Below are positions 3,994 to 52,985 of a stretch of DNA of 56,651 nucleotides, in pieces. The stretch's first letter is position 1. Every line of letters begins with the position of its first letter. The notes below the pieces were generated by a model. It made no database searches. It was not told where the DNA came from and was given only the letters and a program-made list of their open reading frames with translations. Both the position numbers and the translations under genes were made by a program. Origin of the DNA: Verrucomicrobiota bacterium (GTDB lineage Bacteria > Verrucomicrobiota > Verrucomicrobiia > Opitutales > Opitutaceae); contig JAPLTN010000096.1 in the NCBI GenBank assembly GCA_026398135.1, forward strand, positions 1-56,651. Reading direction: 5' to 3'.

Positions 3994-4066
3994 GGGTTTC
4001 GTGCGCGTAGGGAGCGAGAGCGGCAAGCGCAAGCGCGACTTTTTTTAGACCGACGCGGGAAGCAGT

Positions 4067-4546
4067 TTATTTAAGCGGATAAACCTTCGTCTCGGGCGCC
4101 AGGCGCAAGCGCTGATCCAGCTCGAAAAACACCGCTGGCGTCGGCCGTAGCGCGGCGAAGCGCGGATGGGTCGGATTTAGGAGATAGTTAAATTCCTGTG
4201 GCACGATCACGCTGGGGACCGCCAAGGCGAGTCCGCCCGCCTTGCGCAGCCAGCGGTCGCCCAGCGCCCGGGTCTGGGCGAGGTCGTCGCGCCGGCTGAA
4301 GGCGTCGGCCGGAAGCGCCTCGACGTCCTCGGCTGCCAAATCGACCTGGATGAAGGAAAACATCGGCAGGGGTGCGGCGGTATCGAGGTGCACCAGAGTT
4401 TCGAGCAAGGCCAGTGAACGGGCTGCGCTGGTATAAACCACGCGCAGGCCCGGGCTGTTCCAGCGTCCGCCAAAGAGTTTTGCGCCCTCACCGCTGAAGG
4501 CCTCCGGGGCACGAGTGGTGCGTGTCAGACGAAAGACCGTCGGCAT
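4067..4546 (-). CDS. RES-domain toxin
   Basis: 159 residues, the usual size for RES-family toxins. Conserved positions are visible: Arg in FGGRWNSPG, Tyr in VVYTSAARSLALLETLVH with the Glu of LLET, and a C-terminal Ser/Asn segment (VPSVIVPQEFNYLLNP). Characterised relatives either degrade NAD+ (MbcT) or ADP-ribosylate targets (ParT); which applies here cannot be told from sequence. The gene lies six bases downstream of its antitoxin gene, the normal antitoxin-first order. The family call is secure; present activity is inferred. Confidence 0.9.
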   Translation of the reverse strand: MPTVFRLTRTTRAPEAFSGEGAKLFGGRWNSPGLRVVYTSAARSLALLETLVHLDTAAPLPMFSFIQVDLAAEDVEALPADAFSRRDDLAQTRALGDRWLRKAGGLALAVPSVIVPQEFNYLLNPTHPRFAALRPTPAVFFELDQRLRLAPETKVYPLK

Positions 4547-4552
4547 CGCAGA

Positions 4553-5020
4553 CTAGTTATAGACCCCGTATTCGAGCCGACCGATGAGGTTTTCGACCTC
4601 GCGGGCACCGGGCTCGGTCTCGGCGTAATCCAGCGGGGTGGCCCCGCCCAGAGCCAGCGCCGGACGCCGCAACCATTCCCGGGCGGTTTGTTCGTTTAGG
4701 TCGAACAGCTGCGCGGCCTGCCAAAACAACCGCGCATAACGCACGATGCGGTCTCCATGCGCCGAATCCAAGGGGGCCCCGTCGTGGCGACGCCGCGCCA
4801 AGGTGGCGACCGAGATACCGACCTTTTGGGCCATGGCCTCGACTGTCAGGCCCAGCAGCTCGCGTAACGCATCAAACTCGACCAAGGGCAGGCCAACCCG
4901 GATCGCGCTCATCATCGCCGGTCCGTCGAGGTGGGGATGCGCAGGCTCAAGGGTGGGGATTTCGTGAAGAGCTCCCGCGTGCAGGCGGCTGGGATGTTGT
5001 AAAATCAGGGCATCATTCAT
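4553..5020 (-). CDS. Xre/MbcA/ParS-type antitoxin (DUF2384 family)
   Basis: 155-residue partner of the RES toxin. A helix-turn-helix region (LRELLGLTVEAMAQKVGISVATLARRR, about residues 53-79) is followed by the DUF2384-like C-terminal part (RIVRYARLFWQAAQLFD ... AREWLRRPALALGGATPLDYAETE) that contacts the toxin in known complexes. A TATACT -10-like hexamer sits at 5026-5031 on the minus strand, only six bases before the ATG, so the message may be leaderless; I see no good -35. Autorepression by the toxin-antitoxin complex is usual in the family but no clear operator was identified. Confidence 0.88.
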   Translation of the reverse strand: MNDALILQHPSRLHAGALHEIPTLEPAHPHLDGPAMMSAIRVGLPLVEFDALRELLGLTVEAMAQKVGISVATLARRRHDGAPLDSAHGDRIVRYARLFWQAAQLFDLNEQTAREWLRRPALALGGATPLDYAETEPGAREVENLIGRLEYGVYN

Positions 5021-5066
5021 TTGAGAGTATAAAATAAATCAAATGAGCGGAAGCCAAGCAAAAAAT

Positions 5067-5097
5067 ATCCCGCCTGCGCATTGGAGCGAGGCGGGAT
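5067..5097 (-). terminator. Rho-independent terminator of the aminotransferase gene
   Basis: Perfect 9-bp arms ATCCCGCCT (5067-5075) and AGGCGGGAT (5089-5097). On the minus strand the hairpin is followed by ATTTTTTG. It lies 30 bases after the aminotransferase stop and separates it from the antitoxin gene just downstream. Confidence 0.85.
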
Positions 5098-5126
5098 GAA
5101 GCTGAGATCGTCGGCAGGTTAAATTT

Positions 5127-6215
5127 TTAAGCGGCGACCTTCGGGCACTCGGCGAGGGCGGAGTCGAAGGAGGCGAGCATGCTGGCGATGGTGGCGTCGG
5201 TTTCGTCGCCCATGTTGGAGATGCGGAAGGTCTTGCCCTTGAGTTTGCCGTAACCGCCATCGATCACGAGGCTGTGCTTGGACTTCAGGGTCTTGTTAAG
5301 CGCGGCGAGATCGTAGTTCAGGTTGTTGGCGAAACAGTTGAGGGCGATGGAGCCATAGCCTTCCTTGGGGAACATTTTAAAACCCTTGGCCAGAATGTGG
5401 TCGCGCACCGTTTTATTGAGACGGGCATGGCGGGCGTAGCGGGCTTCGATGCCCTCGGCTTTGATGTCTTCGAGCTTGGACTTGAGCGCGTAGATCAACG
5501 CGATGGACGGGGTGCTGGGGGTCATGCCGGCTTCGTGGTTCTTTTGGAACTCGACGAAATCGAAATAATACCCGCGGTCGGCGAGAGTGGCGGCGCGTTC
5601 GAGGGCGCGTTTGGAAACGCTGACCAGCGCCAGACCGGGCGGCATGGCCAAGGCTTTTTGCGAACCGGTGATCAGCACGTCGATGCCGAGTTCGTCTTTC
5701 TTGATCGGCACCACCGAGAACGAGCTAACGGTGTCCACGATCGAGATGACGTCGGGGAATTCGCGGATCACGGCCATCAGAGCGGGCAGATCACTCATGC
5801 AACCGCAGGAAGTCTCGTTGTGAATCAGGGTGATGGCGTCGTAGGCCCCGGTGGCGAGCTCGCGGCGCACGGCCTCGGGATCGACGGGCTGGCCCCACTC
5901 GGCCTTGAGCGCGCCGGCGGCCTTGCCGCAACGCAGGGAAACGTCGTACCATTTGTCGGAGAACGCGCCGTTCATGCAGTTAAGAACTTTTTTCTTAACC
6001 ACGTTACGGATAGCGCCTTCCATGATTCCCCAGGCCGAGCTGGTGGAGAGGTAAACCGGGTCCGTAGTGTAGAACAGGGCCTGGAGGTCAGGTTGAATCG
6101 CATTGTAGAGCGCGACGAAATCGTTGCTACGGTGGCCGATCATGCCCTGGGCCATGGCCTTAAGGGTTTTTTCAGAAACGGCGATGGGGCCGGGAATAAA
6201 GAGTTTGTAGCTCAT
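5127..6215 (-). CDS. Class V PLP-dependent aminotransferase (alanine/serine-glyoxylate type)
   Basis: 362 residues of the alanine-glyoxylate / serine-pyruvate aminotransferase group (COG0075). The N-terminus LFIPGPIAVSEKTLKAM and the IGHRSNDF motif are typical of this group. The PLP-binding lysine is Lys187 in ITGSQKALAMPPG, preceded by IVDTVSSF, whose Asp contacts the pyridine nitrogen. Substrate cannot be fixed: relatives act on alanine, serine or phosphoserine-like substrates, and in organisms lacking a SerC orthologue they can serve serine synthesis. Single gene, with its own terminator. Confidence 0.85.
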   Translation of the reverse strand: MSYKLFIPGPIAVSEKTLKAMAQGMIGHRSNDFVALYNAIQPDLQALFYTTDPVYLSTSSAWGIMEGAIRNVVKKKVLNCMNGAFSDKWYDVSLRCGKAAGALKAEWGQPVDPEAVRRELATGAYDAITLIHNETSCGCMSDLPALMAVIREFPDVISIVDTVSSFSVVPIKKDELGIDVLITGSQKALAMPPGLALVSVSKRALERAATLADRGYYFDFVEFQKNHEAGMTPSTPSIALIYALKSKLEDIKAEGIEARYARHARLNKTVRDHILAKGFKMFPKEGYGSIALNCFANNLNYDLAALNKTLKSKHSLVIDGGYGKLKGKTFRISNMGDETDATIASMLASFDSALAECPKVAA

Positions 6216-21147: not shown

Positions 21148-24060
21148 ATGACGCTGCCTCGTCACCCGAACGGCTCCAGCAGCCGATTGCGCCTTCCCCT
21201 TACGCTTGCCGCGTTCGTTTTCGCCTGCGTACATGTCCATGGGCAAGTCCCTACTATTCCTCTGGCTAACCAAGTGGCGGAGGCCGAGCAGAACCTCACG
21301 GCTAAAAGGCCTGCGGATGCAGTCGTGCTGCTTGATGAAATTATCAAGCGCGCTCAAGCGGGCGAAGCGCTTCCTGCCGGCGTGACTTTGGAGAAGCTGT
21401 TGCAAACGGCGGCCAATACGAATTTCCAGATTCAGAAATACGACCGGGCGGCGGAGCTTGGTCTTGCGTTGGAAAAAGTCCCGGGCGTCGGGGCGTCGGT
21501 TTTAGCCGAAGCGCGCATGATTACCGGCTTGGCTTTGGCTTTGCAGCAAAAGTATGCCGAGGCGGTGCTGATGTTTCAGAAGGTCGAGGACTCCAAGACC
21601 TACCGTGACAAAGCATTGCTCTATGGCGCGATGTCGGCCGCGCAAGCGGGCCAAATCCCCGTGGCGATCGATACGTATAACCGGATGCTCGCCACTTCGG
21701 CCCGTGACCGAGATTGGGCGGACGCCGCTTTGTCCCTCGTCGATCTGCATTTGCGCGCGGGAAACATCGCGGATGCCCGACGCGTTCTGTCGTTTTTACG
21801 CGGTAATCTGGCCTTGGTGGACAACATCGCCGGCCTAAACATTCTCTCCCTCACATTGGGCGACGCCTTGATGAAGGCGGGAGATAACGCCGGGGCGCTG
21901 GCCGCATTTAGGAATGTTACCACCCGTGATGCGCTGATTGCGGAACAAAAAAAGCGTAACGTCGCCTTGGAGCGCGCGCTCTCCCGTTATACAGGCATGC
22001 AGCGCCCATCGGCGACGGATGCCGATACCATCCGCCGTCTTAATGCGCGTCTGGAACAAGCGAAGTCATCCTTGGAACAGGTCGAGAAATTGACCGGTTA
22101 CGATGCCACGCTGCGTTACCGTCTCGCCTTCACTTTTCAAGAACGCGGCGGGGCTTGGGAAGCCGCCCTCCTATTTGAGGACTTGATTGCGAACTACCCC
22201 GATTCCCCCGAGCAGGAGAATGCTTATTTCGGTCTGGTGCGCGCCTACGCCGATGCGGCCCGGTTCGATAAAGTGGGGCAGGCGGTGGATCGGTTTGTGC
22301 GTGCTTTCCCAAACTCCAAGTTCGGGCCGCAGGCGCTTTATCTGGCGGCGATGGCGGCAGGACAGCGCCAAGACACGGGTGCGCAACTAAACTTCCTGTC
22401 CTTGGCCACGGATAAATTCCCAGGTTCCGATCTGGGCGAATCGCTGCAACTGATGAAGGCGAACACGCTCTTCACTTTAAACCGTTACAACGAGGCCAAA
22501 ACTGTAGTCGTGGGCTACGCCAAGGAATTCCCGACCGGTAAATTTATTGAAGAAGCCAGGTATCTCTCTGCTATGGCGGACTTGGCCGAGGGTCGGGCTT
22601 CGGAGTCTGAAGTCCAGATTCAAGCCTATTTAAAGGATTATCCGGAAGGTCGCTTTGTGCCTGACGCACGCTATCGCCTGGCCGCTGCTGCTTACGCCAA
22701 GCAGGACTTTAAGCTCTCTGCCGAGCTCTGTGCCAAATGGTTGGCGGATTATCCTCCCGAGCAACCCCAGCGCGGCGAGATTTATTCCCTCAATGCCGAT
22801 GCCTTGGTGGGCTTGGATCGCGCTGGAGATGCCATCATCGCCTATCAAAAGGCGCTCAGCTTCACTCTTTCCGATGACCAATTAGGCTACGTTTTAGACG
22901 AGCTCACGCGTTTGTATCAGTCTCGTAAGGAGTTTGATGCGGCGGTTACCATGTGGTCGCAGTTCGCCGCTGAGCGCCCCGACCATCCGTTCGTAATCAA
23001 TGCGGCCTACTGGATCAGCCGCATACGCACCCGCGAAGGAAAACCTGATGAGGCTTTGGAGATGGTTTCCCAAATCACTCGTCGCTACGTCAAGGACCCG
23101 AGTCGTGGTGACGTTGAGCGTCTTTTAATTGAGATCGCTTCTACGATAGCTCGTCCGCCCCGGGTGAAAAAAGGGGAACCCAAGCCCGCTCCGATTCCAG
23201 ATCAGGTGCTTTTTGACCGGGCTAATCAGCTCATTCTGGACAACAACACACGCTCTAACCCCACCGCTCAGGCCCGTTCACTTTTCGTCCAAGCTGAAAT
23301 CGCGTCACTCCGCAAAAATGAAGCGAAGAAAAACGAAATCCTGGGCAAGATTGCCTCCAAATTCGCACCGGATCAGTTGCCCCCGGGCATTCTTGGCAAA
23401 GTCGGCGATGCGTTGATGGCTCAACGCCAACCCGAGCTGGCAAAGAAGTTCTACCAGGAAATCATCACCGCACATCCCCGTTCAATTTTTGCGGATTACG
23501 GTTACGTCGGATTGGGTGAAATTGCGTTGCTCAAAGGCGACGGAAATGACGCCCTGGGTCGCTTTAACGCCGCGATCGATGTCGCCGGTGCACGGTTCAA
23601 GCTCAAGGAAGCCACTATCGGCCGGGCCCGCGCCCAGTTGCTGAATGGCCGCCTTGAAGCCGCCAAGGCACTTTTCGAGGAAGTTGCCGGCAATCGTAAC
23701 TGGCGCGGTGAGGCGACGGCCGAAGCGCTGTATAATTTGGGCGAAATTTCTTTGAGCCGAAACACTCCTGAGGATTTGGCCAAGGCCCAAGCCCACTATC
23801 AACGCGTTTATCTCTCTTACAAACGCTACGGACCTTGGGTAGCCAAAGCTTACCTGCGTTCCGCCGAGACCTTTGATAAACTCGGCCAAGTCCAGGAGGC
23901 GCTGACCACGATTAATCGTTTTTTCAGTTTTCGTGAACTCGAGCAATACCCCGAGTGGAAACAAGCGGTTGCGCTTAAACCTCAGTTAGAGGCGCGTGTC
24001 CCGGCCGCTCCCGCCACCCCTGTTGCCCGTCCCGCCACCCCGGCCCCCGCCAGCACATGA
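21148..24060 (+). CDS. Exported TPR-repeat protein
   Basis: 970 residues from the ATG at 21148, giving a signal peptide (RLRLPLTLAAFVFACVHVHG). Nearly the whole chain is TPR-like helical hairpins in a YbgF/BamD style (e.g. GDALMKAGDNAGALAAFRNV, YFGLVRAYADAARFDKVG, GKVGDALMAQRQPELAKKFY), ending in a Pro/Ala tail. It would form a long periplasmic scaffold. Its stop overlaps the next start (ATGA), and the ExbB/ExbD/ExbD/vWA genes follow on the same strand, so I place it in a proton-driven envelope complex. A GTG at 21115 is a less likely start. Confidence 0.85.
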   Translation: MTLPRHPNGSSSRLRLPLTLAAFVFACVHVHGQVPTIPLANQVAEAEQNLTAKRPADAVVLLDEIIKRAQAGEALPAGVTLEKLLQTAANTNFQIQKYDRAAELGLALEKVPGVGASVLAEARMITGLALALQQKYAEAVLMFQKVEDSKTYRDKALLYGAMSAAQAGQIPVAIDTYNRMLATSARDRDWADAALSLVDLHLRAGNIADARRVLSFLRGNLALVDNIAGLNILSLTLGDALMKAGDNAGALAAFRNVTTRDALIAEQKKRNVALERALSRYTGMQRPSATDADTIRRLNARLEQAKSSLEQVEKLTGYDATLRYRLAFTFQERGGAWEAALLFEDLIANYPDSPEQENAYFGLVRAYADAARFDKVGQAVDRFVRAFPNSKFGPQALYLAAMAAGQRQDTGAQLNFLSLATDKFPGSDLGESLQLMKANTLFTLNRYNEAKTVVVGYAKEFPTGKFIEEARYLSAMADLAEGRASESEVQIQAYLKDYPEGRFVPDARYRLAAAAYAKQDFKLSAELCAKWLADYPPEQPQRGEIYSLNADALVGLDRAGDAIIAYQKALSFTLSDDQLGYVLDELTRLYQSRKEFDAAVTMWSQFAAERPDHPFVINAAYWISRIRTREGKPDEALEMVSQITRRYVKDPSRGDVERLLIEIASTIARPPRVKKGEPKPAPIPDQVLFDRANQLILDNNTRSNPTAQARSLFVQAEIASLRKNEAKKNEILGKIASKFAPDQLPPGILGKVGDALMAQRQPELAKKFYQEIITAHPRSIFADYGYVGLGEIALLKGDGNDALGRFNAAIDVAGARFKLKEATIGRARAQLLNGRLEAAKALFEEVAGNRNWRGEATAEALYNLGEISLSRNTPEDLAKAQAHYQRVYLSYKRYGPWVAKAYLRSAETFDKLGQVQEALTTINRFFSFRELEQYPEWKQAVALKPQLEARVPAAPATPVARPATPAPAST

Positions 24061-24893
24061 GTCCCCGTCGTCCCTACCTCTTCGCGTTTGGCCCTTTGAC
24101 CTGGCTGTTTGCCGTCCTGGCCTTGGCCCCGGCAGCGCACGCCCAACGCTACATTCTTAAGAACGGCAATCCACTGAACGCGGCGGATGTCACCTTGGCC
24201 TCCGGCTTTCTCGTTCAGCAGATTCCCTCACCCGGCGGGGGCAGCGTTGAAAAGCGCTTCCCGCTCGCCGATATTGCCCGTCTCGATTTTCCCGAACCCG
24301 AGGCGCTGGATACCGCCGATGATCTGGTTGCGGCTGGCAAGGGCGACGAAGCCCTGCAGTTGTTATTACCGATTTACCGGCAGTTCGCCCCTTTTGCCAA
24401 ACTTCCCGGATCTTACTGGGCACGAGCGGCTGAGCTTCGGCTCAAAGCACTCCTGCTCGGGACCGATGGTCCCGCGATTACGAGTGCCGCCCGTGAGCTC
24501 ATGCAGAGCGGCCAGGGCTCGGATATTGTCGGCACCGCCAAGCTCGCCTTGGCCCAGCTCGACGCCCGGGCTGGCAAAGAATCCTTGGCCAACATAATGA
24601 TCGAGGAGATTTTGCGCGAAGCCACTCCCTCCGTTCAGGCCCGCGCCTGGCTCTTACGCGGCGATCTTGCCGCCAAACGCGCTGCCCATGCCGAGGCCTT
24701 GGAGGCCTATTTACGGATACCGGCTTTTTTCGGCACGATCGACGAGTTAATGCCTGCCGCTCTGCTCGGTGCCGCTCGTGCTTATAAAGGTTATGGCGAT
24801 AGAGGCCGGGCGGAGCGTTCAGCTATGGAGCTTATTGATAATTACCCGACCACCCTGCAAGCCGCCCAGGTCAAAAAAGAGTTTAATCTTTGA
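24057..24893 (+). CDS. Exported helical-repeat (TPR-like) protein
   Basis: 278 residues with a signal peptide (GPLTWLFAVLALAPAAHAQ). A short β-rich start (YILKNGNPLNAADVTL ... RFPLADIARLDFPEPE) is followed by helical pairs of TPR type ending YNLYPTT-like (ELIDNYPTTLQAAQVKKEF). The ATG overlaps the preceding stop by four bases (ATGA), so translation is coupled with the large TPR protein. Probably a second periplasmic subunit of the same system; no known family recognised. Confidence 0.75.
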   Translation: MSPRRPYLFAFGPLTWLFAVLALAPAAHAQRYILKNGNPLNAADVTLASGFLVQQIPSPGGGSVEKRFPLADIARLDFPEPEALDTADDLVAAGKGDEALQLLLPIYRQFAPFAKLPGSYWARAAELRLKALLLGTDGPAITSAARELMQSGQGSDIVGTAKLALAQLDARAGKESLANIMIEEILREATPSVQARAWLLRGDLAAKRAAHAEALEAYLRIPAFFGTIDELMPAALLGAARAYKGYGDRGRAERSAMELIDNYPTTLQAAQVKKEFNL

Positions 24894-24912
24894 TACTTTT
24901 TCTCCGAATCCA

Positions 24913-24940
24913 CTGACAATCCATCCTGGCCCCCTAGAAT
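24913..24940 (+). promoter_or_regulatory. Probable σ70-type promoter of the exbB gene
   Basis: CTGACA (24913-24918), 16-base spacer, TAGAAT (24935-24940), 21 bases before the exbB ATG. Five of six matches in both hexamers. It would let the ExbB/D/D/vWA genes be expressed apart from the TPR genes. Confidence 0.5.
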
Positions 24941-24961
24941 CCAATTTTTAACTAACACGTT

Positions 24962-25765
24962 ATGAAACGCATCCTTACATTGGTCTCCCTCATCTCCGTT
25001 ACCCCGCTGGCCCTGCTGGCGCAGGCCGCAGCTGCTCCTGCCCCCGCCGTCAAATCGGTGAGTTTGTTACAAGAGCTATCTTCGCCCTTCATATTACCCC
25101 TCTGGTTTTGCTCCGCGTTGATTGTATATCTGGTAATCGACATCTATCTCAAGAGTTCGGCCAAGCAATTTATCCCCCCCGCCGACCTGGAGGCGGTTCG
25201 CACTTTTTTCCGCGCCGGTGATTATCACGGTGCCTACTCCTGGTCCGCCGGCACGAGCGGCGCAGTGGCTGCCGTGGTCCATGCGGGTATCAAGCATTCC
25301 AACGAGGGTAAAACTGCGACCGAAGATGCCATGGGTGCGGCGATAATTGGCGAGAACTCCAAGTTTCAAAATAAAATCGCCTACCTTTCCGTTATTGGCG
25401 TTATCGCGCCGATGGTTGGTTTGACGGGAACAGTAGTCGGTATGATTCAGGCATTTGCGGCCATGGGTGCCGCCGGTGCCGCCGATCCTTCCAAACTGTC
25501 GGGCGCTATCGGCCACGTGCTTCACGCCACGGCGGCTGGTCTTGCGGTGGCTATTCCTGCCTTCGTATTTTATTATCTACTTCGTAATCGCGTATCGCAC
25601 CAGATCCACGAACTGACGGTGGTGGTTAACGATCTCTTCCGTAGCTATCCTTATGAACATCTTCAAGGTGTGGTCTTCGAGGGTGGCGAGCATGTGGCAG
25701 CGACTCCGAATTGGATCACCGGGGCGGCCCCGGTTGGTTCCGTAAGTGGCGAAGCCCAAGCGTAA
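24962..25765 (+). CDS. exbB: MotA/TolQ/ExbB-family proton channel protein
   Basis: 267 residues. N-terminal cleavable-looking or anchoring segment (MKRILTLVSLISVTPLALLA), then three helices: ILPLWFCSALIVYLVIDIYL, the long IAYLSVIGVIAPMVGLTGTV, and LHATAAGLAVAIPAFVFYYL. The last carries the polar TxxGLxVAIPA pattern lining the ExbB/TolQ proton path. Forms an inner-membrane motor with the two ExbD proteins encoded next. An extra N-terminal signal-like segment is a variation also seen in other phyla. Confidence 0.92.
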   Translation: MKRILTLVSLISVTPLALLAQAAAAPAPAVKSVSLLQELSSPFILPLWFCSALIVYLVIDIYLKSSAKQFIPPADLEAVRTFFRAGDYHGAYSWSAGTSGAVAAVVHAGIKHSNEGKTATEDAMGAAIIGENSKFQNKIAYLSVIGVIAPMVGLTGTVVGMIQAFAAMGAAGAADPSKLSGAIGHVLHATAAGLAVAIPAFVFYYLLRNRVSHQIHELTVVVNDLFRSYPYEHLQGVVFEGGEHVAATPNWITGAAPVGSVSGEAQA

Positions 25766-25798
25766 CATTTATTAAACCGTCTCCAACCAAGAACGCAG

Positions 25799-25833
25799 AA
25801 CAGCCGCTTAAGCTAAAGAGCTCCAAGGCTGTT
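25799..25833 (+). other. Hairpin in the exbB-exbD gap
   Basis: Arms AACAGCC (25799-25805) and GGCTGTT (25827-25833) with a weaker inner pairing. No T run follows, so it is not a standard terminator; it may stabilise the mRNA between exbB and exbD. A TTGACT at 25833-25838 with a poor -10 overlaps it. Confidence 0.3.
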
Positions 25834-25880
25834 TGACTCTGGGATCTGAAGATTTCTTAAACCCTTAATCCCTTTTCTTT

Positions 25881-26306
25881 ATGGCAGGTGGTGGTGGTGG
25901 TGGTGATGGCGAGCCAGAATTTCAAATCGCCCCAATGATCGACGTTTTATTGGTGCTGCTCATATTTTTTATGAGCATCGCCACTTCCAGCGTGGCCCGC
26001 TACGACCCGGGAATAGCAGTGCCCCTCGCTCCCGACGCCAACAAGAAGGAGGATTCCGAGGGTGAACTCGTTTTTAATGTCGCGTGGAAGCCTTCCACGG
26101 ATACGGCGGTAATTTCCTACGAGGAACAGGTGGTGGTGCCCGATCAGGTGGTGCCGACACTTATCGCCCGGAAAAATGCCAATCCGCAAGTTCGAGTCCT
26201 CGTCCGGGCTGATTCGGAAACTCCTGTTCGCTATGTAAATAGCGTGATTGAGGCCGCCGCCAAGGCAGGCATCGTCGATGTCACCTTCGCCACGGTCGCA
26301 CGTTAA
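25881..26306 (+). CDS. exbD: ExbD/TolR-family protein (first copy)
   Basis: 141 residues. Gly-rich cytoplasmic start (MAGGGGGGDGEPEFQ), one membrane helix with the essential acid Asp21 in IAPMIDVLLVLLIFFM, and a periplasmic domain ending in the RYVNSVIEAAAKAGIVDVTF pattern of ExbD/TolR. Works as the stator-side partner of ExbB in using proton flow. Second exbD gene follows 62 bases later, so the channel may carry an ExbD heterodimer. Confidence 0.93.
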   Translation: MAGGGGGGDGEPEFQIAPMIDVLLVLLIFFMSIATSSVARYDPGIAVPLAPDANKKEDSEGELVFNVAWKPSTDTAVISYEEQVVVPDQVVPTLIARKNANPQVRVLVRADSETPVRYVNSVIEAAAKAGIVDVTFATVAR

Positions 26307-26368
26307 CTCTCCGAACGCATTCTGCACCGCGTTTCACGCCATTTCACTGTCCTCCTTTTCTTAGCCCG

Positions 26369-26815
26369 ATGAAAATACCCGTCCAGTCCAACAATCCCGA
26401 TGTCGGTTTCCAGATTGCTCCGATGATCGACGTGGTATTCGTCATCCTCGTTTTCTTCATGTCGTTGGCGGCTCAGATTCGCATTGAGCAGATATTACAA
26501 ACCAAGCTTCCAGGCGTTTCGGTCGCTGGTACCGCGACCGAGTTTGTTGACGAGCAGATAGTACAAATCGGCCAAGACGGCGAAGTAACCCTGAACGAGG
26601 AGATTTATGATTCGCCGACCAGTCGTGATATGCCCCAGCTCACGACCACTTTGGGCCAACTTAAAGCATCCAGCGACGCCGCCAAAAACAAACTCGTGGT
26701 TACCGTGATCAGCCACCCCGATTCACCTTATTACCGCACGATTGATGTGCTCAACTCTCTCGCCGTTGCCGGGGTGACCAATGTCACTTTCACGGCTGAA
26801 GGCGACGAGTCCTGA
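26369..26815 (+). CDS. exbD: ExbD/TolR-family protein (second copy)
   Basis: 148 residues. Membrane helix with Asp21 in IAPMIDVVFVILVFFM, and a periplasmic domain with PYYRTIDVLNSLAVAGVTNV. It differs clearly from the first ExbD in the periplasmic part (TKLPGVSVAGTATEFVD), which suggests distinct surfaces in a hetero-oligomer rather than a recent duplication. Thirteen bases separate its stop from the vWA gene start. Confidence 0.93.
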   Translation: MKIPVQSNNPDVGFQIAPMIDVVFVILVFFMSLAAQIRIEQILQTKLPGVSVAGTATEFVDEQIVQIGQDGEVTLNEEIYDSPTSRDMPQLTTTLGQLKASSDAAKNKLVVTVISHPDSPYYRTIDVLNSLAVAGVTNVTFTAEGDES

Positions 26816-26828
26816 ACGTTCCCGCCCC

Positions 26829-28403
26829 ATGTCTGAACTAAATCCCGAAACTCCCGAGTCCGAAGTCGAGGCGGTGGCTTCCGCTCCCGCAGTGGCTGCT
26901 CCGCGAAAAAAGAATTTTTATCAGCGGCTGACCGCGAGTATGCCGTTGCTTATCACTATCATCGTGCACGTTGTGCTGATTGGTGGAGCTGCGGCTATCG
27001 TGGTGCAGCAGAATGTTATTGGTAAAAAGAAAACCTTTGAGGCGGCCAACCAAAACGAGTCGGTGGCGGAAAAGCAGGTCGAGCATCGGCTTCAAGTCGC
27101 CCGTCGTGGAGGAGCGTCCAGTAGCGCGGCCAATCCCGTTTCGGCCAATCGTATTTTTTCCACCGCTGAGAATGCCTTGCAGATGCCTGCCATGCCAGAC
27201 CTTCCCACCATGGGTTCGGGTGGGTTTGGTGGCTTCGGTTCGATGGGCTCGGGCGTGGGATTAGGCCAAGGAGCGGGCATGGCCACTTCGCTGGGTGGCG
27301 GCGGCGGTCTTGGTGGTCGCGGCTTTATGTCGATGAATTTTCTGGGGCTTACTTCACAAAACGTAAGCAAAGTGGTTTTTGTGGTCGATACCAGCACTGA
27401 GATTATGGATTTGCGTAAGGGCGGATTTAGGGCGTTTTCGATTATCCGCGAAGAGATTATGCGCTTAGTAGGCGGTCTTCCGCCCGGGGCCCAGTTCAAC
27501 GTGATTCTGTACCGCACTAGGGGGCTAGAGAACGGGGAAGGTGAGTTTAATATTTACAAACGTGAAATGTCCCCGGCGACGAGTGAAAACAAAAAAGACT
27601 TTTTTGAGTGGATGACGCCGGTGAACACTAAATTGGATAATTTCGGTCCCGCTTCAGCGACGCGTCGAACTGGCTGGAGGCGCAAGCCGCTCCCGCCTGA
27701 GTCGGGCGTCGACCCCTTGTTAAATCCACCGACTTGGGCGCGCGCCATGCACGCGGCCTTGGAGCAAGCTCCGGATACGGTTTTCGTAATTACTGCCGGG
27801 ACCGGAAGAGTCACTCGTGATATCAGCGAGCAAGAGCTCGCGAAACGACGGGCCAGCGTGGAGAAAGAACGGCAGGAATATGCCCGCGAAGCCAAAAAAG
27901 AGGGAACCACCTTGGAGGCGGTTCAGGCTGCCCGTCAAAACGCGATTCGCAAGGCTTCCAACGAATTTGCAGAGGCCAATAAAAAGCTTATAGCAGCAGG
28001 TAAAGATCCGATTGTAGCTAGCGAATGGCATGTTATTTTCCGGGCCGACGTACAAGCGGCGTTGAAGAAAAATGGAATTACTATTACCTTGGATGGAACG
28101 GGTTGGACCAAAAAGGATGGCACTCGGTTTGCTCAGCCGCCCGGACGGATTTATACTACAGAGGGTGCTACCTGGAATGACCTGACAACTCATATCGCCC
28201 GTTTGCAGCGCACTTTTTTACCGCAGCAGCGCGCTTCTATAAACTTGTACCTCTTTGTCGGTCCTGATGATAAGCCGGATCAAGCCGTGGCTATACTTTC
28301 CGACATCGCCAAGAAAAACGGTGGCAAGTTCCAGCTACTCACCACCAAGCGGCTCGAAGAAATTCGAGCCAAGGAACTCGAAGCCCAGAAAAAAGGCTCC
28401 TGA
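26829..28403 (+). CDS. Membrane-anchored vWA-like protein with TonB-type transmembrane helix
   Basis: 524 residues from ATG 26829. Cytoplasmic N-terminus, a single helix (~38-59, PLLITIIVHVVLIGGAAAIV), a Gly/Met-rich linker (~125-170), then a von Willebrand A-like domain from ~180 (KVVFVVDTSTEIMDLR). The metal site is degenerate: DTSTE instead of DxSxS. A charged helical insert lies around 330-400 and a second α/β part at the end (NLYLFVGPDDKPDQAVAIL). The helix contains T43-I-I-V-H47, comparable to the SxxxH of TonB/TolA helices that couples to ExbB-ExbD. Since no tonB is adjacent, I infer that this protein is the energised periplasmic arm of the complex. No published function known to me. 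Confidence 0.75.
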   Translation: MSELNPETPESEVEAVASAPAVAAPRKKNFYQRLTASMPLLITIIVHVVLIGGAAAIVVQQNVIGKKKTFEAANQNESVAEKQVEHRLQVARRGGASSSAANPVSANRIFSTAENALQMPAMPDLPTMGSGGFGGFGSMGSGVGLGQGAGMATSLGGGGGLGGRGFMSMNFLGLTSQNVSKVVFVVDTSTEIMDLRKGGFRAFSIIREEIMRLVGGLPPGAQFNVILYRTRGLENGEGEFNIYKREMSPATSENKKDFFEWMTPVNTKLDNFGPASATRRTGWRRKPLPPESGVDPLLNPPTWARAMHAALEQAPDTVFVITAGTGRVTRDISEQELAKRRASVEKERQEYAREAKKEGTTLEAVQAARQNAIRKASNEFAEANKKLIAAGKDPIVASEWHVIFRADVQAALKKNGITITLDGTGWTKKDGTRFAQPPGRIYTTEGATWNDLTTHIARLQRTFLPQQRASINLYLFVGPDDKPDQAVAILSDIAKKNGGKFQLLTTKRLEEIRAKELEAQKKGS

Positions 28404-28742
28404 GTTCATGGGCGAATCTTGATAGGCGCACTTCGAATCATACCGGACAAGCCGAGGACGGAAAAATTTCATATGTTCGCTTTATCAAAGCTCGGCTAAA
28501 GCCGGAACTCCAATTTAAGCTCTGATCGGGCTTTCTCCCGTTGGAGTTCCGCCCTTTAAGCGGTCCGGATTACACTCGGTAGGGCAACGCCTGATATCGG
28601 GTGGTTTTTACAGGTGTTCGTGAAAACCACGGCTGCAAAAGTGCGGTAAAGAATTATCGAGTGACTGCGCGTTCCTGCTTTTTTTATCGGTAAAACGGTC
28701 TCGGACGTTGCACCGAAGCCTTCGCAAGTCTTGCTGCTCGAT
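28404..28742. other. 339-base intergenic region with nested inverted repeats
   Basis: No gene seen. It holds the 28503-28551 inverted repeat listed separately and a second hairpin with 8-bp arms GTGGTTTT (28601-28608) and AAAACCAC (28623-28630). Neither is followed by a T run. A promoter for the HtrA gene must lie near the right end, but I see no convincing one. Confidence 0.5.
28503..28551. repeat. Inverted repeat, REP-like
   Basis: Perfect 11-bp arms CGGAACTCCAA (28503-28513) and TTGGAGTTCCG (28541-28551). A small inner hairpin CGGG/CCCG (28527-28540) sits beside the right arm. No T run, so a dispersed intergenic palindrome or an mRNA 3' stabiliser is more likely than a terminator. Confidence 0.6.
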
Positions 28743-30257
28743 ATGCGAATTCCCAGGATTGCGAGCATCGTCCCTATCGGGTTTAACCCACGGGCCTTCA
28801 CGTTTTTACTTTTATCAGCGCTTTGCGTCCGTGCCCAGCTTTTGCCGGCCAGTTCACCGGAGCAGGCGGTGGTGCAGATTCTCACCGCCAGCCAAACTCC
28901 CGATTTTGATGCCCCGTGGCGTTTCGATTCGGTGCGGCGCTCCACTGGCACCGGGTTCGTGATCGAGGGCGGGCGCATCCTGACCAACGCCCACGTAATC
29001 GCGTGGGCCAAACAGATTTTGGTGCGTCGTTATCAGGATCCCCGTTTGCTGCCCGCCCGGGTGGTTTATGCCGGGCATGATTGTGATCTGGCCATCGTTG
29101 AATTACTCGACCCCAAGGGGCTTGAGGGGGTGAGTCCGCTCACCTTGGGCGAATTGCCGGCGGTGCAATCCACGGTTGTGACCATCGGTTACCCGGCTGG
29201 CGGTGAGCAAATCTCGTTCACCCGCGGCGTAGTATCCCGCATCGAGATGCAGGCCTACGCGCATCCGGGTAATCGGTCCTTATTGGCGGTGCAGACCGAT
29301 GCCGCGATCAACCCGGGCAACAGCGGCGGCCCCGTGCTGCAAGAGGGCAAGGTGGCGGGGGTGGCGTTTCAAGGTATCCCCGGCCTGCAAAACGCCGGTT
29401 TTTTCATTCCGCCCGAGGTAGTGAGGCATTTTCTCAAGGACGTCGCCGACGGTCGTTACGATGGCGTGCCCTTGGCGGGTGTTACTCTGGAGCCGCTGCA
29501 AAATCCCGCCTACCGCCGCCAGCTGGGCTTGGCCGACGATGGCCGGGGGGCGCGGGTGGACGCGCTTCGTCCTGATGGTGCCGCTATGCGCGTGCTTCGT
29601 CGCGACGATGTCGTGCTCGAAGTTGGCGGGCTCGCGGTCGGCAGCGACGGCATGGTGCTGTATCGAGGGAACCGGGTTTCGGCCTCGGTGGCGTTTCAGC
29701 AGCCGCAATCCGGCGAACCCGTGCGCTTGAAAATCTGGCGGGATCGCGCCGAGTTGACGCTCGATTTGCCCATGGAGGCCTATCGCGGGGACCGCCTGGC
29801 CGGCCGCAGCTACGACACGTTGCCCCGTTACTTCGTGCACGCCGGCTTGGTCTTCACCCCGCTTTCGGCGGATTACCTGGAAACGGTTGGCCGTCCTGGC
29901 CGTGACAATCTATGGGCTGGTTTAGCCAAGCTGATCTACGAATTACGCGGGCGTCCGCTGGAAGAGCCCGCCACCGTGCGCGCCGAACCTATCGTGCTGG
30001 CCACGATACTCCCTCATCCGGTGAATGCCGATTTTAGCATGCGCGGAGGTGCATTGGTTAATCGCATCAACGGTGTGCGTATCGAGCGGCTGGAGGACGT
30101 GATCCGCGCCCTCTCTGAAAATCAAGGAGAGCGTCATGTGCTGGAATTCGATGGCCCCGACCAAGGTCCCCTGGAGGCAATCAACCGCGCCGCCGCCGCC
30201 GCCGCGCACACCGAAATCCTTCGCACTTACGCAATCCCCTCCGATCAACGCCTATGA
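28743..30257 (+). CDS. HtrA/DegP-type serine protease with PDZ-like domains
   Basis: 504 residues from ATG 28743 (an upstream TTG at 28731 is possible). Signal peptide (FTFLLLSALCVRAQ), trypsin-like domain with His84 (ILTNAHVI), Asp115 (HDCDLAIVEL) and Ser194 (NPGNSGGPV), then two PDZ-like parts (~225-320 and the C-terminal ~110 residues, VNRINGVRIERLEDVIRAL). Likely a periplasmic protease or chaperone. It overlaps by four bases (ATGA) with a paralogue that has lost the catalytic residues, so the two are probably made in fixed ratio and may form a hetero-oligomer. Confidence 0.9.
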   Translation: MRIPRIASIVPIGFNPRAFTFLLLSALCVRAQLLPASSPEQAVVQILTASQTPDFDAPWRFDSVRRSTGTGFVIEGGRILTNAHVIAWAKQILVRRYQDPRLLPARVVYAGHDCDLAIVELLDPKGLEGVSPLTLGELPAVQSTVVTIGYPAGGEQISFTRGVVSRIEMQAYAHPGNRSLLAVQTDAAINPGNSGGPVLQEGKVAGVAFQGIPGLQNAGFFIPPEVVRHFLKDVADGRYDGVPLAGVTLEPLQNPAYRRQLGLADDGRGARVDALRPDGAAMRVLRRDDVVLEVGGLAVGSDGMVLYRGNRVSASVAFQQPQSGEPVRLKIWRDRAELTLDLPMEAYRGDRLAGRSYDTLPRYFVHAGLVFTPLSADYLETVGRPGRDNLWAGLAKLIYELRGRPLEEPATVRAEPIVLATILPHPVNADFSMRGGALVNRINGVRIERLEDVIRALSENQGERHVLEFDGPDQGPLEAINRAAAAAAHTEILRTYAIPSDQRL

Positions 30258-31771
30258 ATGCGCCCCGGAACCTTCGTTTTTACCTGATCGCCTCGTGCCT
30301 CGCGCTGGCCGCATCACTCACGCTGGCGGTGGGTGTGCATGCGCAAGCTCCCGCAACCGCTTTAAGCGTGCTGCCCGACACCGAGGCGACGGATTGGACG
30401 CGCTCGCTGGTCAGTATCGAGGTGACTTACAAGGCGCTCGACGCTTTTCAGCCCTGGAACACGCCTACGCGGGCCATTCGCAAGCAGGGTGTGGTCGTCG
30501 CGCCCGGGGAAGTGCTCACCACCGCGCAATACCTGCCCACCCACACGCTGGTGCGGGTCCAAAAAGGCGGTCGCGGCCGCTGGTTCGACGCCCGCGTGAA
30601 ATGGTGGGACGCGCAGTCCAATCTCGCCTTGCTCACTTCGGAGGCTCCGGACTTTTGGAAAGGTTTACAGCCGGTCGAGCTTTCCTCCGAGGCTTCGCGA
30701 GGACCGGATTTCGATCTCGTGCGCTGGCGCGACGGCAATCTTGAGAACCGGCGGGTTGAATTTGGCCAGTTTACGGTGCGCGAAGGCGTGCTCGGTTTTG
30801 CCCCGCACGTGATGTTGGAGATTAGCACGGATCTCACCGGACTGGGCTGGTCCGAGGTGGTGGCGCATCGCGGCCGTGTGCTTGGCCTCACCACGTACTC
30901 CACCGGACGGACCTGTGGCGTGGTGCCTGCGGCTTTCATTCAACGCGTGCTCGATGCCCAGCGCCTGGGGAAGTTTACCGGGCTGGGTTATCTCGATTTT
31001 ACGTGGCAGCCGGGCAGCAATCCCGAGTTGCTCACCGAACTAGGCCTTGCGGGTTCGCCCAGGGGCGCGGTGGTGCACCAAGCTGGACGCGTGAAGGATC
31101 CGGCTTTCGCTCCACAGCCGCGCGATATTCTTTTGGAAATCGATGGATCCCCGATCGACATCGAGGGCGATTACCTCGATCCGGACTTTGGCCATCTCAT
31201 GCTGGAAAACCTGGCCAACCGGACCCACTTCGCCGGGGACGTGTTGCCCATAAAGCTCCTGCGCGGCGGAAAGGAAATGACGGTGAATTATCGCATACCG
31301 CGCGCGAGTTTCGCCGAGGAACTGGTGCCTCGTGAAACTTTTGACCGCCCCCCGGCCTACGTCGTGACCGGCGGTCTGGTCTTTCAGTCGCTCTCCCAAC
31401 CCTTCCTCCGGGGCTGGGGTGACGATTGGCGCAAGTATGCGCCGCTGAGGCTTCAATATTACCAGTATTCGGACACAGCGGATGGACGTAAATCGCTCGT
31501 GGTGCTCACCGGAGTACTGCCCGATGTATTCAATCTCGGTTACCAAGACGAGCGCTTCATCGTGCTCGACAAGGTAAACGGACGCACCATTGCCACCCTC
31601 GCCGACCTGGTCGAGGCGCTGGGCGCGCCCGAGCCCGGGGCTGATGTGCATCGTTTCGAGTTTATGCGCGGTCAGGGATTGGAACGTATACTCCTCGACG
31701 CCCCCGGACTGGACGCGGCCACGGCAAGGGTGATTCAGTTCTACGGCATCCCGGCCGCCACACGGTTGTAA
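30254..31771 (+). CDS. HtrA-like pseudoprotease with PDZ-like domains
   Basis: 505 residues with a signal peptide (YLIASCLALAASLTLAVGVHA) and the same layout as its upstream neighbour. Aligned by eye, the catalytic positions are replaced: VLTTAQYL for ILTNAHVI (His to Gln92), DAQSNLALL for HDCDLAIVE (Asp to Asn123), and the GNSGG loop is replaced by GLGWSEV. The PDZ-like regions remain (PRDILLEIDGSPIDIEGDY; ERFIVLDKVNGRTIATLADL). It is an intact gene, so selection appears to keep a non-catalytic function such as substrate capture or regulation of the active partner. Confidence 0.8.
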   Translation: MNAPRNLRFYLIASCLALAASLTLAVGVHAQAPATALSVLPDTEATDWTRSLVSIEVTYKALDAFQPWNTPTRAIRKQGVVVAPGEVLTTAQYLPTHTLVRVQKGGRGRWFDARVKWWDAQSNLALLTSEAPDFWKGLQPVELSSEASRGPDFDLVRWRDGNLENRRVEFGQFTVREGVLGFAPHVMLEISTDLTGLGWSEVVAHRGRVLGLTTYSTGRTCGVVPAAFIQRVLDAQRLGKFTGLGYLDFTWQPGSNPELLTELGLAGSPRGAVVHQAGRVKDPAFAPQPRDILLEIDGSPIDIEGDYLDPDFGHLMLENLANRTHFAGDVLPIKLLRGGKEMTVNYRIPRASFAEELVPRETFDRPPAYVVTGGLVFQSLSQPFLRGWGDDWRKYAPLRLQYYQYSDTADGRKSLVVLTGVLPDVFNLGYQDERFIVLDKVNGRTIATLADLVEALGAPEPGADVHRFEFMRGQGLERILLDAPGLDAATARVIQFYGIPAATRL

Positions 31772-43561: not shown

Positions 43562-43918
43562 GGGGGTGTTCTGGATTCGACCCTTGGTTGGAGTGCACGG
43601 CTGCCCTTCGCGAGTGACGGTCTCGCGTTATAAATTCCTTCAAAACAAAATAAACGGCACCTTCGAAGAAATGCCCCTCGCTGCCTAAGTGCAGTGACGA
43701 TCGCCCAGTGACGTCCACTAGCTGACGTGATCGACGACCAGTGGACATAGCGCCCAGAGCCACCCGCGGTGTGGGCGCCGTATCTTCGATCCGGGGGTTA
43801 GTTAACACCATTGCGCGTGCAGTCGCGGGGTGTCGGCGAATTTAAAACGGCACTATAAGGGTAGACGCCATGCGCGAAGGCCAGGGGCACGCGGGTTCAA
43901 TTCCCGCCACCTCCACCA
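43562..43918 (+). ncRNA. ssrA: tmRNA (transfer-messenger RNA)
   Basis: The 5' end GGGGGTGTTCTGGATTCGAC and 3' end GGTTCAATTCCCGCC-ACCTCCACCA pair as the tRNA-like acceptor (GGGGGUG with CACCUCC) and T arm, with encoded CCA. The tag frame most likely resumes at GGC 43656 (AAAATAAAC before it resembles E. coli AAATAGTC) and ends at TAA 43686-43688, giving GTFEEMPLAA, a 10-residue tag with the usual LAA end. The pseudoknots are not resolved by eye. A terminator follows. The 3' part is duplicated downstream. Confidence 0.95.
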
Positions 43919-44102
43919 ATTGAACAACGAAGAGCCTGCGGGTGCCGAAAGGCGCTCGCAGGTTTTTTTGTGACGGCGCGGGCGGGAATCGAGCCGCGTG
44001 CGCGCGCTGTGCGCTCCATCGCGGGTGTCAAGCGCACCGCCCGAGGCGGCGCCAATTCCCGCCACCTCCACCAATTGAACAACGAAGAGCCTGCGGGTGC
44101 CG
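43898..44102. repeat. 50-bp direct repeat of the tmRNA 3' end (att-like)
   Basis: Positions 43898-43947 and 44053-44102 are identical over 50 bases, starting in the T-loop of tmRNA (CAATTCCCGCCACCTCC) and running through CCA into the terminator stem. Crossover inside a T-loop with duplicated 3' end is the pattern left by tmRNA-integrating tyrosine recombinases. The 105 bases between hold the tmRNA terminator and GC-rich sequence, no gene. Confidence 0.85.
43935..43969 (+). terminator. Rho-independent terminator of ssrA
   Basis: Stem CCTGCGGGTGCC (43935-43946) / GGCGCTCGCAGG (43951-43962), GAAA loop, then seven T. Two or three inner mismatches. The downstream 50-bp copy includes only the left arm. 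Confidence 0.88.
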
Positions 44103-44130
44103 CGCTTGTGCTACCATTACACCATCGAGC
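44103..44130 (-). pseudogene. Truncated tRNA (5' fragment)
   Basis: On the minus strand the sequence begins GCTCGATGGTGTAATGGTAG, an acceptor strand plus D arm in the style of a Gln- or Glu-type tRNA, and stops at the 50-bp repeat junction. Anticodon and T arms are absent. It follows tRNA-Lys and tRNA-Thr in the same orientation, so the original operon probably had a third tRNA that was cut by the rearrangement at the tmRNA 3' end. Confidence 0.6.
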
Positions 44131-44177
44131 AGTAAGGGAAAACTGGGTTATGTATCGCGAGGATTTGGACTGGCGAT

Positions 44178-44252
44178 TGGAGCCGGCGACTGGACTCGAA
44201 CCCGCAACCGCCTGTTTACAAAACAGGTGCTCTACCATTGAGCTACACCGGC
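44178..44252 (-). tRNA. tRNA-Thr (UGU anticodon)
   Basis: Full cloverleaf: acceptor GCCGGTG with CGCCGGC, D arm AGCTCAATGGTAGAGC, anticodon loop TTTGTAA (anticodon TGT), T arm GCGGGTTCGAGTCC-type, and encoded CCA. 75 bases. Confidence 0.95.
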
Positions 44253-44328
44253 GACACAATCGGGTCGCGAAATCAACATAAACCTCGGAAAGAACGCGGC
44301 CTAACCAGTTAGTGGCCAAGCCGTAAAG

Positions 44329-44403
<75 letters not shown>

Positions 44404-50307: not shown

Positions 50308-50416
50308 CAGGAAGCGAAGCGCTTTGATGCTCTGCTCATGGTAGCCTCAATAATGCCAATTCTCAACGTACTCGCCGGGGGGCTGGCGATCCACAGGTGT
50401 CTGGCCGTGGTTTGTT

Positions 50417-50448
50417 AGCATTGCAATTAACCAGCATTGCAATTAACC
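50417..50448. repeat. Exact 16-bp tandem duplication
   Basis: AGCATTGCAATTAACC occurs twice without spacer (50417-50432, 50433-50448), 13 bases before the transposase remnant. Probably a by-product of insertion or excision. Confidence 0.85.
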
Positions 50449-50461
50449 TGTCCCTTATCCT

Positions 50462-52810: not shown

Positions 52811-52948
52811 GTGCTCTCGGTGTCTAATTCGCCATGTAATATTCTGACTTAATGATGGGTTCTACCGCTTGCAGCGGTGTAACTTAAGTACTAGATGGCT
52901 GTTTGCACGTTCCAATTGCGACTTCGACCGACGCTTAGAACAGTGCCA

Positions 52949-52985
52949 CATTTGTGCCATAAGGATATTCCTTATGGCACAAATG
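52949..52985. repeat. 37-bp perfect hairpin
   Basis: Exact 17-bp arms CATTTGTGCCATAAGGA (52949-52965) and TCCTTATGGCACAAATG (52969-52985) around TAT. It starts 138 bases after the unknown exported-protein gene and has no T run. It could be two abutting IS ends, a REP-type element or an mRNA 3' structure. Confidence 0.9.

Follow-up and report, generated by a model that had tools for sequence, protein, structure and literature searches.

What does a proton motor do when a vWA protein stands where TonB would be expected? The question is raised by a block of six genes in a 56,651-nucleotide stretch of a Verrucomicrobiota genome (contig JAPLTN010000096.1, hereafter the window). A sequence-only reading of this DNA regarded the vWA protein as the energised arm of the motor and was aware of no published system built in this way. 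The second claim is wrong: PMC12204202 (Williams-Jones et al. 2025) presents the same make-up and the same histidine argument. There, clusters of TPR, tolQ, two tolR and TMH-linker-vWA genes in PVC bacteria are described as force transducers powered by the PMF, with no function assigned, and the block in the window is a further member of these vWA force transducers. We consider it probable that it encodes a trans-envelope machine of ExbBD/TolQR type, driven by protons and fitted with a vWA arm, for which a glycan task serves as a lead.

The block, its motor and its distribution

All six genes of the earlier reading, TPR1-TPR2-ExbB-ExbD1-ExbD2-vWA, are present consecutively on the plus strand between 21148 and 28403 (table 1), and the reading frames of TPR1 and TPR2 overlap by 4 bases.

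Table 1. Features of the block and of its 3' flank in the window. Residues of the vWA arm are numbered from the ATG at 26829, as in the sequence-only reading.
Feature	Position	Strand	Remarks
TPR1	21148..24060	+	about 970 residues, N-terminal signal-like helix; ORF opens at 21115; TPR/YfiO/YbgF families
TPR2 (Mul1B-like)	24057..24893	+	signal-like helix, small beta domain at about residues 31-77, TPR helices after
ExbB/TolQ-type motor subunit	24962..25765	+	signal-like helix at N terminus
ExbD1	25881..26306	+	Asp21 within TM helix
ExbD2	26369..26815	+	Asp21 within TM helix
vWA arm protein	26829..28403	+	524 aa; ORF opens at 26781
Arm TM helix, residues 38-63	26940..27017	+	T43-I-I-V-H47; AF2 helix
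H47 codon of vWA arm	26967-26969	+	
Disordered linker, residues 62-177	27012..27359	+	QVEHRLQVAR segment, Gly-rich stretch after; pLDDT mostly <50
vWA-like head, residues 178-524	27360..28400	+	degenerate MIDAS D187-T-S-T-E; pLDDT mostly >90
HtrA-type serine protease with PDZ domains	28731..30257	+	flank, outside core
HtrA-like paralogue	30254..31771	+	flank, outside core; catalytic residues apparently absent (by eye)

ExbB matches the Pfam family MotA_ExbB (E 2.8e-27) and the two ExbD proteins match ExbD (E 1.1e-16 and 8e-15); the Asp21 read from the translations of both copies is confirmed in the alignment. The PADLOC models, which cover ZorA and ZorB of Zorya and other defence systems, find no family among the six proteins at E 0.01, and a defence role was set aside. 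The best models for ExbB and both ExbDs are TolQ and TolR, with scores under the model cut-offs, and TPR1 scores above cut-off with both YbgF and BamD. These affinities, together with the HtrA-type proteases 3' of the block in the window and at two further loci (L051 and L171), would fit a Tol-Pal-like role in envelope stability or assembly, the arm pulling on a periplasmic TPR/outer-membrane complex in division or outer-membrane assembly. We hold such a role to be unlikely: Pfam finds no Pal or TolB family in the block, matching genomes carry anywhere between one arm and 18 or more, and the arm is patchily distributed, occurring in 7 of 25 genomes listed for its own family, where a housekeeping tether should be spread more evenly. 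The HtrA pair is not counted as core: of the loci read, the window, L051 (the same locus as L175) and L171 are the only ones in which it trails the block; a single HtrA homologue lies near L065 on the opposite strand.

The expectation that the gene linkage would reach beyond this strain is borne out. Within the genus, 13 of 15 genomes carry the arm, as do 7/7 of the good ones, and the suggested search for arms beside exbD finds ExbD immediately upstream in 16 of 24 named relatives; an ExbD pair lies directly 5' of an arm in all 12 arm-bearing genomes compared. The six-gene order is found in 14 of the 24 named loci, among which L175 and L176 duplicate L051 and L052, and also in 11 of 20 fetched loci, which we picked by hand and whose genes were called profile-first. 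Eight families of the phylum are represented, and a TPR1 homologue occurs in all 11 of these other module loci. The module is also present, at 62% identity, in L173, a record whose title names Akkermansia muciniphila; we take that title as doubtful and left the record out of the evidence on Akkermansia.

The vWA arm and its exchangeable heads

The analysis supports the view that the vWA protein is a TonB/TolA-type arm in its anatomy: the AF2 model consists of a TM helix, a disordered linker and a folded head. The T43-I-I-V-H47 motif noted earlier in the single helix is real and conserved. H47 is found in 25/25 close vWA arm homologues (the 25-row alignment A9) and in 20/20 wider homologues (alignment A1, built on 20 of the 22 arms that the fetched loci yielded, two with non-vWA heads included); position 43 is T or S in 25/25 and 19/20 of them, and the helix-linker alignment A2 has the histidine in 21/21. 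Among 78 background proteins, a set that includes shadow ORFs, none has [ST]xxxH at its first TM helix, and nine have a histidine in the core of that helix. The arm helix contains His and lacks Asp, and the QVEHRLQVAR segment of the linker is invariant or almost so in A9. Pfam finds neither TonB_C nor a TolA C-terminal domain in the arm, and the five TonB_C matches of the genome all lie on other contigs, away from the block; the vWA gene occupies the slot that tonB holds in L042 and L043, two ExbB-ExbD-ExbD-TonB clusters that this genome also has.

Helix and linker form a module whose heads, vWA or other, are exchangeable, the arms being about 20% identical and their histidine invariant. Five genomes each hold at least 16-18 arms as against 10-15 ExbD matches; arm counts are minimum values wherever the scoring took in 18 candidates, namely in every g42 genome except G127. 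At E 0.01 Pfam recognises SHD1 in 5 of 18 alternative heads, vWA in one and nothing else. PA14-like motifs are visible by eye in alternative heads; a PA14 identity was set aside on these Pfam results and on a comparison with PDB sequences, which returned nothing at E 1. Arms that swap heads would show the TonB principle to be modular at the head end.

The sequence-only proposal of an energised arm thus stands as regards anatomy, the invariant histidine of the TM helix and the position in the tonB slot, and is partly supported as an overall interpretation; we find the arm mechanism quite likely. The helix might instead be a plain anchor and the protein an unenergised scaffold or substrate of the adjacent motor, the contact between the two being deduced here from sequence. 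That an invariant histidine persists in a hydrophobic helix across such divergent arms, with the head free to vary, argues against a mere anchor, as does the place of the gene in the tonB slot, and we regard this alternative as very unlikely.

The arm protein matches Pfam PF00092 below its cut-off, at 13.9 bits against 23.8. A Foldseek search with the modelled arm gives one PDB match at E <= 0.001, the PilB minor pilin (E 3.5e-4, TM-score 0.27); many next-ranked matches are vWA proteins with low TM-scores, and pilus adhesins are among the nearest folds. PilB and some of the other matches presumably contain vWA themselves. The MIDAS is degenerate, reading DTSTE in the window and having mostly E, S, G, R or D at its third position in relatives, and a metal-binding adhesive vWA was set aside because the MIDAS is not conserved. 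The minor pilin and adhesin folds could fit a motor that serves surface motility or adhesion, with the vWA head or its partner acting as in Myxococcus gliding. In the AglRQS-Glt gliding machine of Myxococcus, one TolQ-like and two TolR-like subunits (AglRQS) power an envelope apparatus with TPR and vWA proteins, the same make-up as the single ExbB, two ExbDs, TPR and vWA proteins here, but its vWA adhesin, CglB, which contacts the substrate, is a surface lipoprotein of the outer membrane, whereas the arm in the window sits in the inner membrane through a motor-type helix. The unconserved MIDAS and the absence of any motility family from the block and the flanking proteins scanned also weigh against motility, and multiple arms per genome, some of them other-headed, are in our judgement a better fit for transport. 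We therefore think a motility motor improbable, although a gliding role is also suggested for vWA force transducers in the available passages of PMC12204202.

Mul1B homology and the glycan lead

For TPR2, Pfam returns no family at E 0.1, and the AF2 model has a TPR fold (pLDDT 88). Its match to the Mul1B model NF052542 (E 0.0011, 18.2 bits) lies below the cut-off of 75 bits; a comparison of profiles gives E 1.3e-8, with eight slices of TPR1 as the comparison set all at E >= 0.08, and the C-terminal half of TPR2 does not match Mul1B. By profile comparison, then, TPR2 is homologous to Mul1B. TPR1 matches the long TPR protein of genus g20, whose gene goes by the name Mul1A, at E 3e-16 without a decoy control, and this may be generic TPR similarity.

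Genus g20, the bearer of true Mul1B, would be Akkermansia, as read off the NCBIfam Mul1B model. In 4/4 g20 genomes mul1B has an ExbD pair 5' of it that shares its contig and strand, and the two Mul1B loci seen in full are arranged ExbB-ExbD-ExbD-TPR-Mul1B, with the vWA gene absent. The helix-linker profile matches 82 genomes in a search of 288, for which the count of g20 genomes is not listed, and none of the 82 belongs to g20. A weak P0006 match in the g20 genome G051 (L069:8751-10352) was rejected as an arm, its helix reading SILIW without His and its sequence lacking a vWA match, and the G069 region (L155) has no arm match. In an unrooted tree of 39 of the 50 distinct ExbB stretches, those of at least 190 residues, the MUL1 ExbB groups with the module ExbBs and apart from the TonB-linked ones (94/95, just below the starred level); the module ExbBs are not its specific sister, and a third ExbB class falls within the same group.

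According to the available passages of PMC13174399, PMC12418764 and PMC12928651, MUL genes are required for mucin transport in Akkermansia. The first of these treats MUL1 as gut-specific and Sus-like and assigns the pilus to MUL2, for which reason we take MUL1 to encode the periplasmic complex. The uptake role floated in the sequence-only reading gains indirect support from the Mul1B homology. Against a glycan task speak the gut-specific, Sus-like view of MUL1 and two further reports: the alginate products of a Verrucomicrobiota alginate degrader are assigned to TonB-type transport (PMC13274419), and two polysaccharide-using Lentisphaerae strains reportedly have no ExbB (PMC11361711).

The relatives of the block point weakly to complex-sugar uptake. 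Glycan enzymes adjoin 4 of the 12 motorless arm loci examined, namely GH5 at L055 and L181, a SASA esterase at L193, and GH88 with fucosidases at L063; at the other eight, none of the neighbours scanned degrades glycans, nor do the eight flanking proteins scanned in the window include a glycan enzyme. Control regions, which we chose non-randomly at round coordinates, are also rich in glycoside hydrolases. In genome G035, Sulfatase occurs in 5 of 58 arm neighbours and is absent from the first 25 of 93 families listed for the 60 control proteins (at most a few there). We claim no enrichment of glycan genes beside the G035 arms, because the control matched GH2, GH43, GH94 and alpha-amylase.

A proposed machine and its known relatives

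In the machine that we propose, ExbB and the two ExbDs, whose families are established, would assemble into an inner-membrane motor, and the TM helix of the vWA arm would dock on the ExbB rim via T43 and H47, much as the histidine does in AlphaFold3 models of homologues in the passages of PMC12204202. The linker, about 115 disordered residues, has the anatomy to span the periplasm, and the head may transmit force by gripping a partner. To judge from gene linkage, this partner is probably formed by TPR1 and TPR2, which the sequence-only reading took for a periplasmic track or receptor, and an outer-membrane protein may or may not belong to it. As a lead, which we judge somewhat less likely than not, the machine would be related to MUL1 of Akkermansia and would move large glycans, or surface complexes that handle glycans, across or at the outer membrane. 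A broader scheme, which we find doubtful, is a TonB-independent importer of large glycans in Verrucomicrobiota: one ExbB-ExbD-ExbD motor, together with periplasmic TPR1 and TPR2, would drive several arms that have a single SxxxH helix-linker module in common and differ in their interchangeable heads (vWA or other folds), recruited to glycan-degradation loci as TonB paralogues are in other phyla, with MUL1 as a derived branch. If true, it would provide a molecular basis for polysaccharide uptake in the phylum. The TPR2-Mul1B homology ties a published family without a function, for which its describers know of no deletion phenotype (PMC12204202), to loci of a family in which mutants do have a phenotype, so that what the vWA motor does becomes testable in a cultured Verrucomicrobiota strain.

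The window displays four features of the published transducers: a helix motif of the SHLS/SxxxH type, a disordered linker, a C-terminal domain of vWA fold, and synteny. As far as the passages of PMC12204202 go, the two share gene order, a single TMH with a motor-contact His, the disordered linker, the vWA head and occurrence in Verrucomicrobia; they differ in that the window linker is Gly-rich and theirs Pro-rich, and in that the window has two TPR genes. Those passages contain neither the TPR2-Mul1B homology nor non-vWA heads, and a term search of the paper gives no Akkermansia, mucin or polysaccharide; swappable heads on a helix-linker module, the Mul1B homology and the glycan enzymes beside 4 of 12 motorless arm loci are additions absent from the openly licensed PMC literature searched. 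With Akkermansia MUL1 (Davey et al. 2023, through PMC13174399, PMC12418764 and PMC12928651), its gene content being taken from the two g20 loci read in this analysis, the block shares ExbB, an ExbD pair, a long TPR protein and a Mul1B homologue, but the TPR genes come last in MUL1 and first in the window, and the vWA arm is absent from MUL1 (two loci; none found in g20). The TonB clusters L042 and L043 have the same ExbB-ExbD-ExbD-arm order and a His in the arm helix, whereas their arm ends in TonB_C and their ExbB falls in another tree group. The second family in the passages of PMC12204202, TPH-vWA/TolQ, shares a TM-anchored vWA and a TolQ-like motor; it has no linked ExbD and carries Asp in its helix, whereas the window carries Asp in its two ExbDs and His in its arm.

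The six-gene block and its proposed vWA arm

The sequence-only reading saw six consecutive same-strand genes here, with Asp21 in both ExbD copies, and open reading frames and Pfam matches bear this out. ExbB, ExbD1 and ExbD2 are confirmed by Pfam, the long TPR1 matches TPR families, the short TPR2 has no match in the Pfam scan of the block proteins, and the Pfam vWA match of the 524-residue vWA protein falls under the family cut-off. There is a four-base overlap between TPR1 and TPR2, and 13 bases separate the ExbD2 stop from the vWA start; all six genes probably form a single operon. The G+C content is about 55-58% across window positions 22001-30000 versus about 59-69% over most of the remaining window. 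In the neighbouring HtrA-like pair, judged by eye, the first protein retains the His-Asp-Ser triad and the second appears to lack it (an active and an inactive member).

Located features of the window and of the second arm in the same genome
Feature	Position	Strand	Remark
TPR1, TPR2, ExbB, ExbD1, ExbD2, vWA	21148-28403	+	six genes, read from sequence
Two overlapping HtrA-like genes	28731-31771		PDZ_3 domains; beside the block
tmRNA, then tRNA-Thr and tRNA-Lys on the other strand	43562-44403		tag GTFEEMPLAA
Transposase-like fragment (by eye)	50480-50995		beside a stretch of 43-48% G+C
Stretch of 43-48% G+C	50001-54000		with the transposase-like fragment, a possible mobile insertion
Second vWA arm	contig C62 (L002/L050), 3847-5418		65% identical

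What could such a block do? We propose, as the best reading, that ExbB-ExbD would form a motor driven by the proton-motive force, that the vWA protein would dock on it through T43 and H47 as an arm, and that the arm head would exert force on either the two TPR proteins or a partner in the outer membrane, with a putative cargo. The AF2 model of the vWA protein, built on a 25-row alignment, shows residues 38-63 as a helix and 62-177 as disordered, and its head, modelled with confidence, runs from 178 almost to the C-terminus. Its single PDB match by Foldseek at E <= 0.001 is the PilB minor pilin, at E 3.5e-4 with a TM-score of 0.27, and many vWA proteins rank beneath it; by sequence the protein has no clear relative in the PDB (best E 0.2). 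The motif T43-I-I-V-H47, already picked out from the sequence, is strongly conserved: H47 is the sole invariant column of the wide 20-row alignment A1 and is kept in 25/25 rows of the close alignment A9, S or T stands four positions earlier in 19/20 and 25/25 rows, respectively, and none of the 78 background proteins having a first TM helix carries [ST]xxxH in it.

The claim that this make-up was undescribed has to be withdrawn. Williams-Jones et al. 2025 (PMC12204202) described vWA force transducers with TPR-tolQ-tolR-tolR synteny, and the window block is therefore a member of that kind, for which the authors state that no deletion phenotype had been reported. An envelope device resembling Tol-Pal is an unlikely alternative identity for the block.

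Spread, linkage and exchangeable heads

The arm is present in 13/15 genomes of the window's genus (7/7 good genomes), in 41/145 phylum genomes by profile P0006 and in 82/288 genomes by the helix-linker profile A2. Linkage of the vWA gene to exbD extends well beyond this strain: among 20 loci fetched for an arm or Mul1B match, the six-gene order recurs in 11, spanning eight families (L051, L052, L053, L058, L060, L061, L062, L065, L066, L067, L068). Six of the other nine are arm loci with no motor beside them (L050, L054, L055, L059, L063, L064), two are Mul1B loci (L056, L057), and L069 fell outside the arm family. ExbD lies directly upstream of the vWA gene in 16/24 named loci, and both TPR genes are visible in 14 of these; in the other 8/24 the vWA gene stands alone (L175 and L176 repeat L051 and L052). 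An ExbD pair directly precedes an arm in 12/12 genomes compared by coordinates, selected from those having arms. This Opitutaceae-like block also occurs, at 62% identity, in L173, a MAG contig whose title, Akkermansia muciniphila, may be wrong.

We add to the published family that arm heads are exchangeable, since the helix and first linker half are found again joined to other heads. Non-vWA heads occur in L063 (5794-7638) and in L058, which keeps the six-gene order. In G035, of genus g42, 12/16 aligned arms share a common non-vWA head by alignment; Pfam found SHD1 in five and VWA_3 in one of all 18 rows. Across the seven g42 genomes tallied, arms and ExbD matches of all kinds number at least 16 versus 14 (G035), at least 18 versus 10 (G050), at least 18 versus 15 (G159), at least 18 versus 14 (G227), at least 17 versus 15 (G247), at least 13 versus 8 (G087) and 5 versus 9 (G127). 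A large paralogous arm set in one genus (L136-L150, L063) has a near-identical helix-linker, for which the consensus lies around FVPPKPVDRPKMKLKKPKVKVKK; most of its heads are other than vWA, and some carry SHD1.

Mul1B and glycan neighbours

A second addition is a link between TPR2 and Mul1B of the Akkermansia MUL1 locus. TPR2 weakly matches the NCBIfam Mul1B model (E 0.0011; 18.2 bits, with the model cut-off at 75), colinearly over TPR2 68-179 and model 70-181. Profile-profile comparison extends this beyond 200 columns (E 1.7e-8 and 1.3e-8 in two comparisons; eight TPR1 slices as decoys, E >= 0.08); the N-terminal part of TPR2 alone gives E 9e-5 (decoys E >= 0.02), and no match is seen between the C-terminal halves (E 0.1). 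The Mul1B model scores above cut-off in 14/145 phylum genomes, all in genus g20, which we take to be Akkermansia. There mul1B has an upstream ExbD pair on the same contig and strand in 4/4 genomes searched for ExbD, and both fully read loci (L056, L057) have the order ExbB-ExbD-ExbD-TPR-Mul1B. In the midpoint-rooted, 39-row ExbB tree, MUL1 ExbB and the module ExbBs share a group that excludes the TonB-linked ones (support 94/95, slightly short of the starred level), although MUL1 ExbB is not their specific sister. This group also holds a third ExbB-ExbD class of g20 (L079, L082, L083, L084), followed by repeat-like secreted proteins. Counting against the link, none of the 82 arm-bearing genomes belongs to g20, and PMC13174399, in the part covered, has aquatic Akkermansiaceae without MUL1 synteny and calls MUL1 Sus-like. 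The covered parts of PMC11790493 and PMC4960237 contain no description of a MUL1 motor; those of the reviews PMC12928651 and PMC12418764 state that MUL genes encoding pili and a periplasmic complex are required for mucin transport or accumulation. That the block is instead a motor for motility or adhesion seems rather improbable.

Glycan-degrading enzymes adjoin 4/12 motorless arm loci with scanned neighbours, L179 and L191 being left out of the count: GH5 at L055 and L181, a SASA esterase at L193, and GH88 (with a weak GH43 match) plus two fucosidases at L063. The proteins scanned at the other eight include no such enzyme: L050 has a histidine kinase, a second vWA protein and an acetyltransferase, L054 Golvesin_C, L059 Hsp70, L064 a glycosyltransferase (one neighbour scanned), and L183, L184, L185 and L186 no families. 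Sulfatases occur in 5/58 neighbours of G035 arms; because the control set is itself rich in glycoside hydrolases, we do not count this as enrichment, and the glycan neighbours are a weak addition to what is published. In the parts covered, PMC13274419 credits a Verrucomicrobiota isolate with TonB-type systems for alginate products, and PMC11361711 reports two polysaccharide-using Lentisphaerae strains without ExbB; both argue against the vWA machine as the phylum's only route.

Possible motor sharing and the place of TonB

The second arm of the window genome has no adjoining motor and lies beside another vWA gene, a histidine kinase and an acetyltransferase; one motor may therefore serve two arms. 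That the vWA protein is instead a non-energised anchor is improbable, and we rate it lowest of the three alternative readings. TonB_C genes and TonB-dependent-receptor plug domains are also found in 16/16 genomes compared, and 0/5 TonB_C matches of the window genome sit on the window's contig. Gene order also makes the vWA protein look like an arm: at its ExbD pairs on contigs C78 and C20 this genome has the order ExbB-ExbD-ExbD-TonB, and the order of the window block is identical except that the vWA protein occupies the place of TonB.
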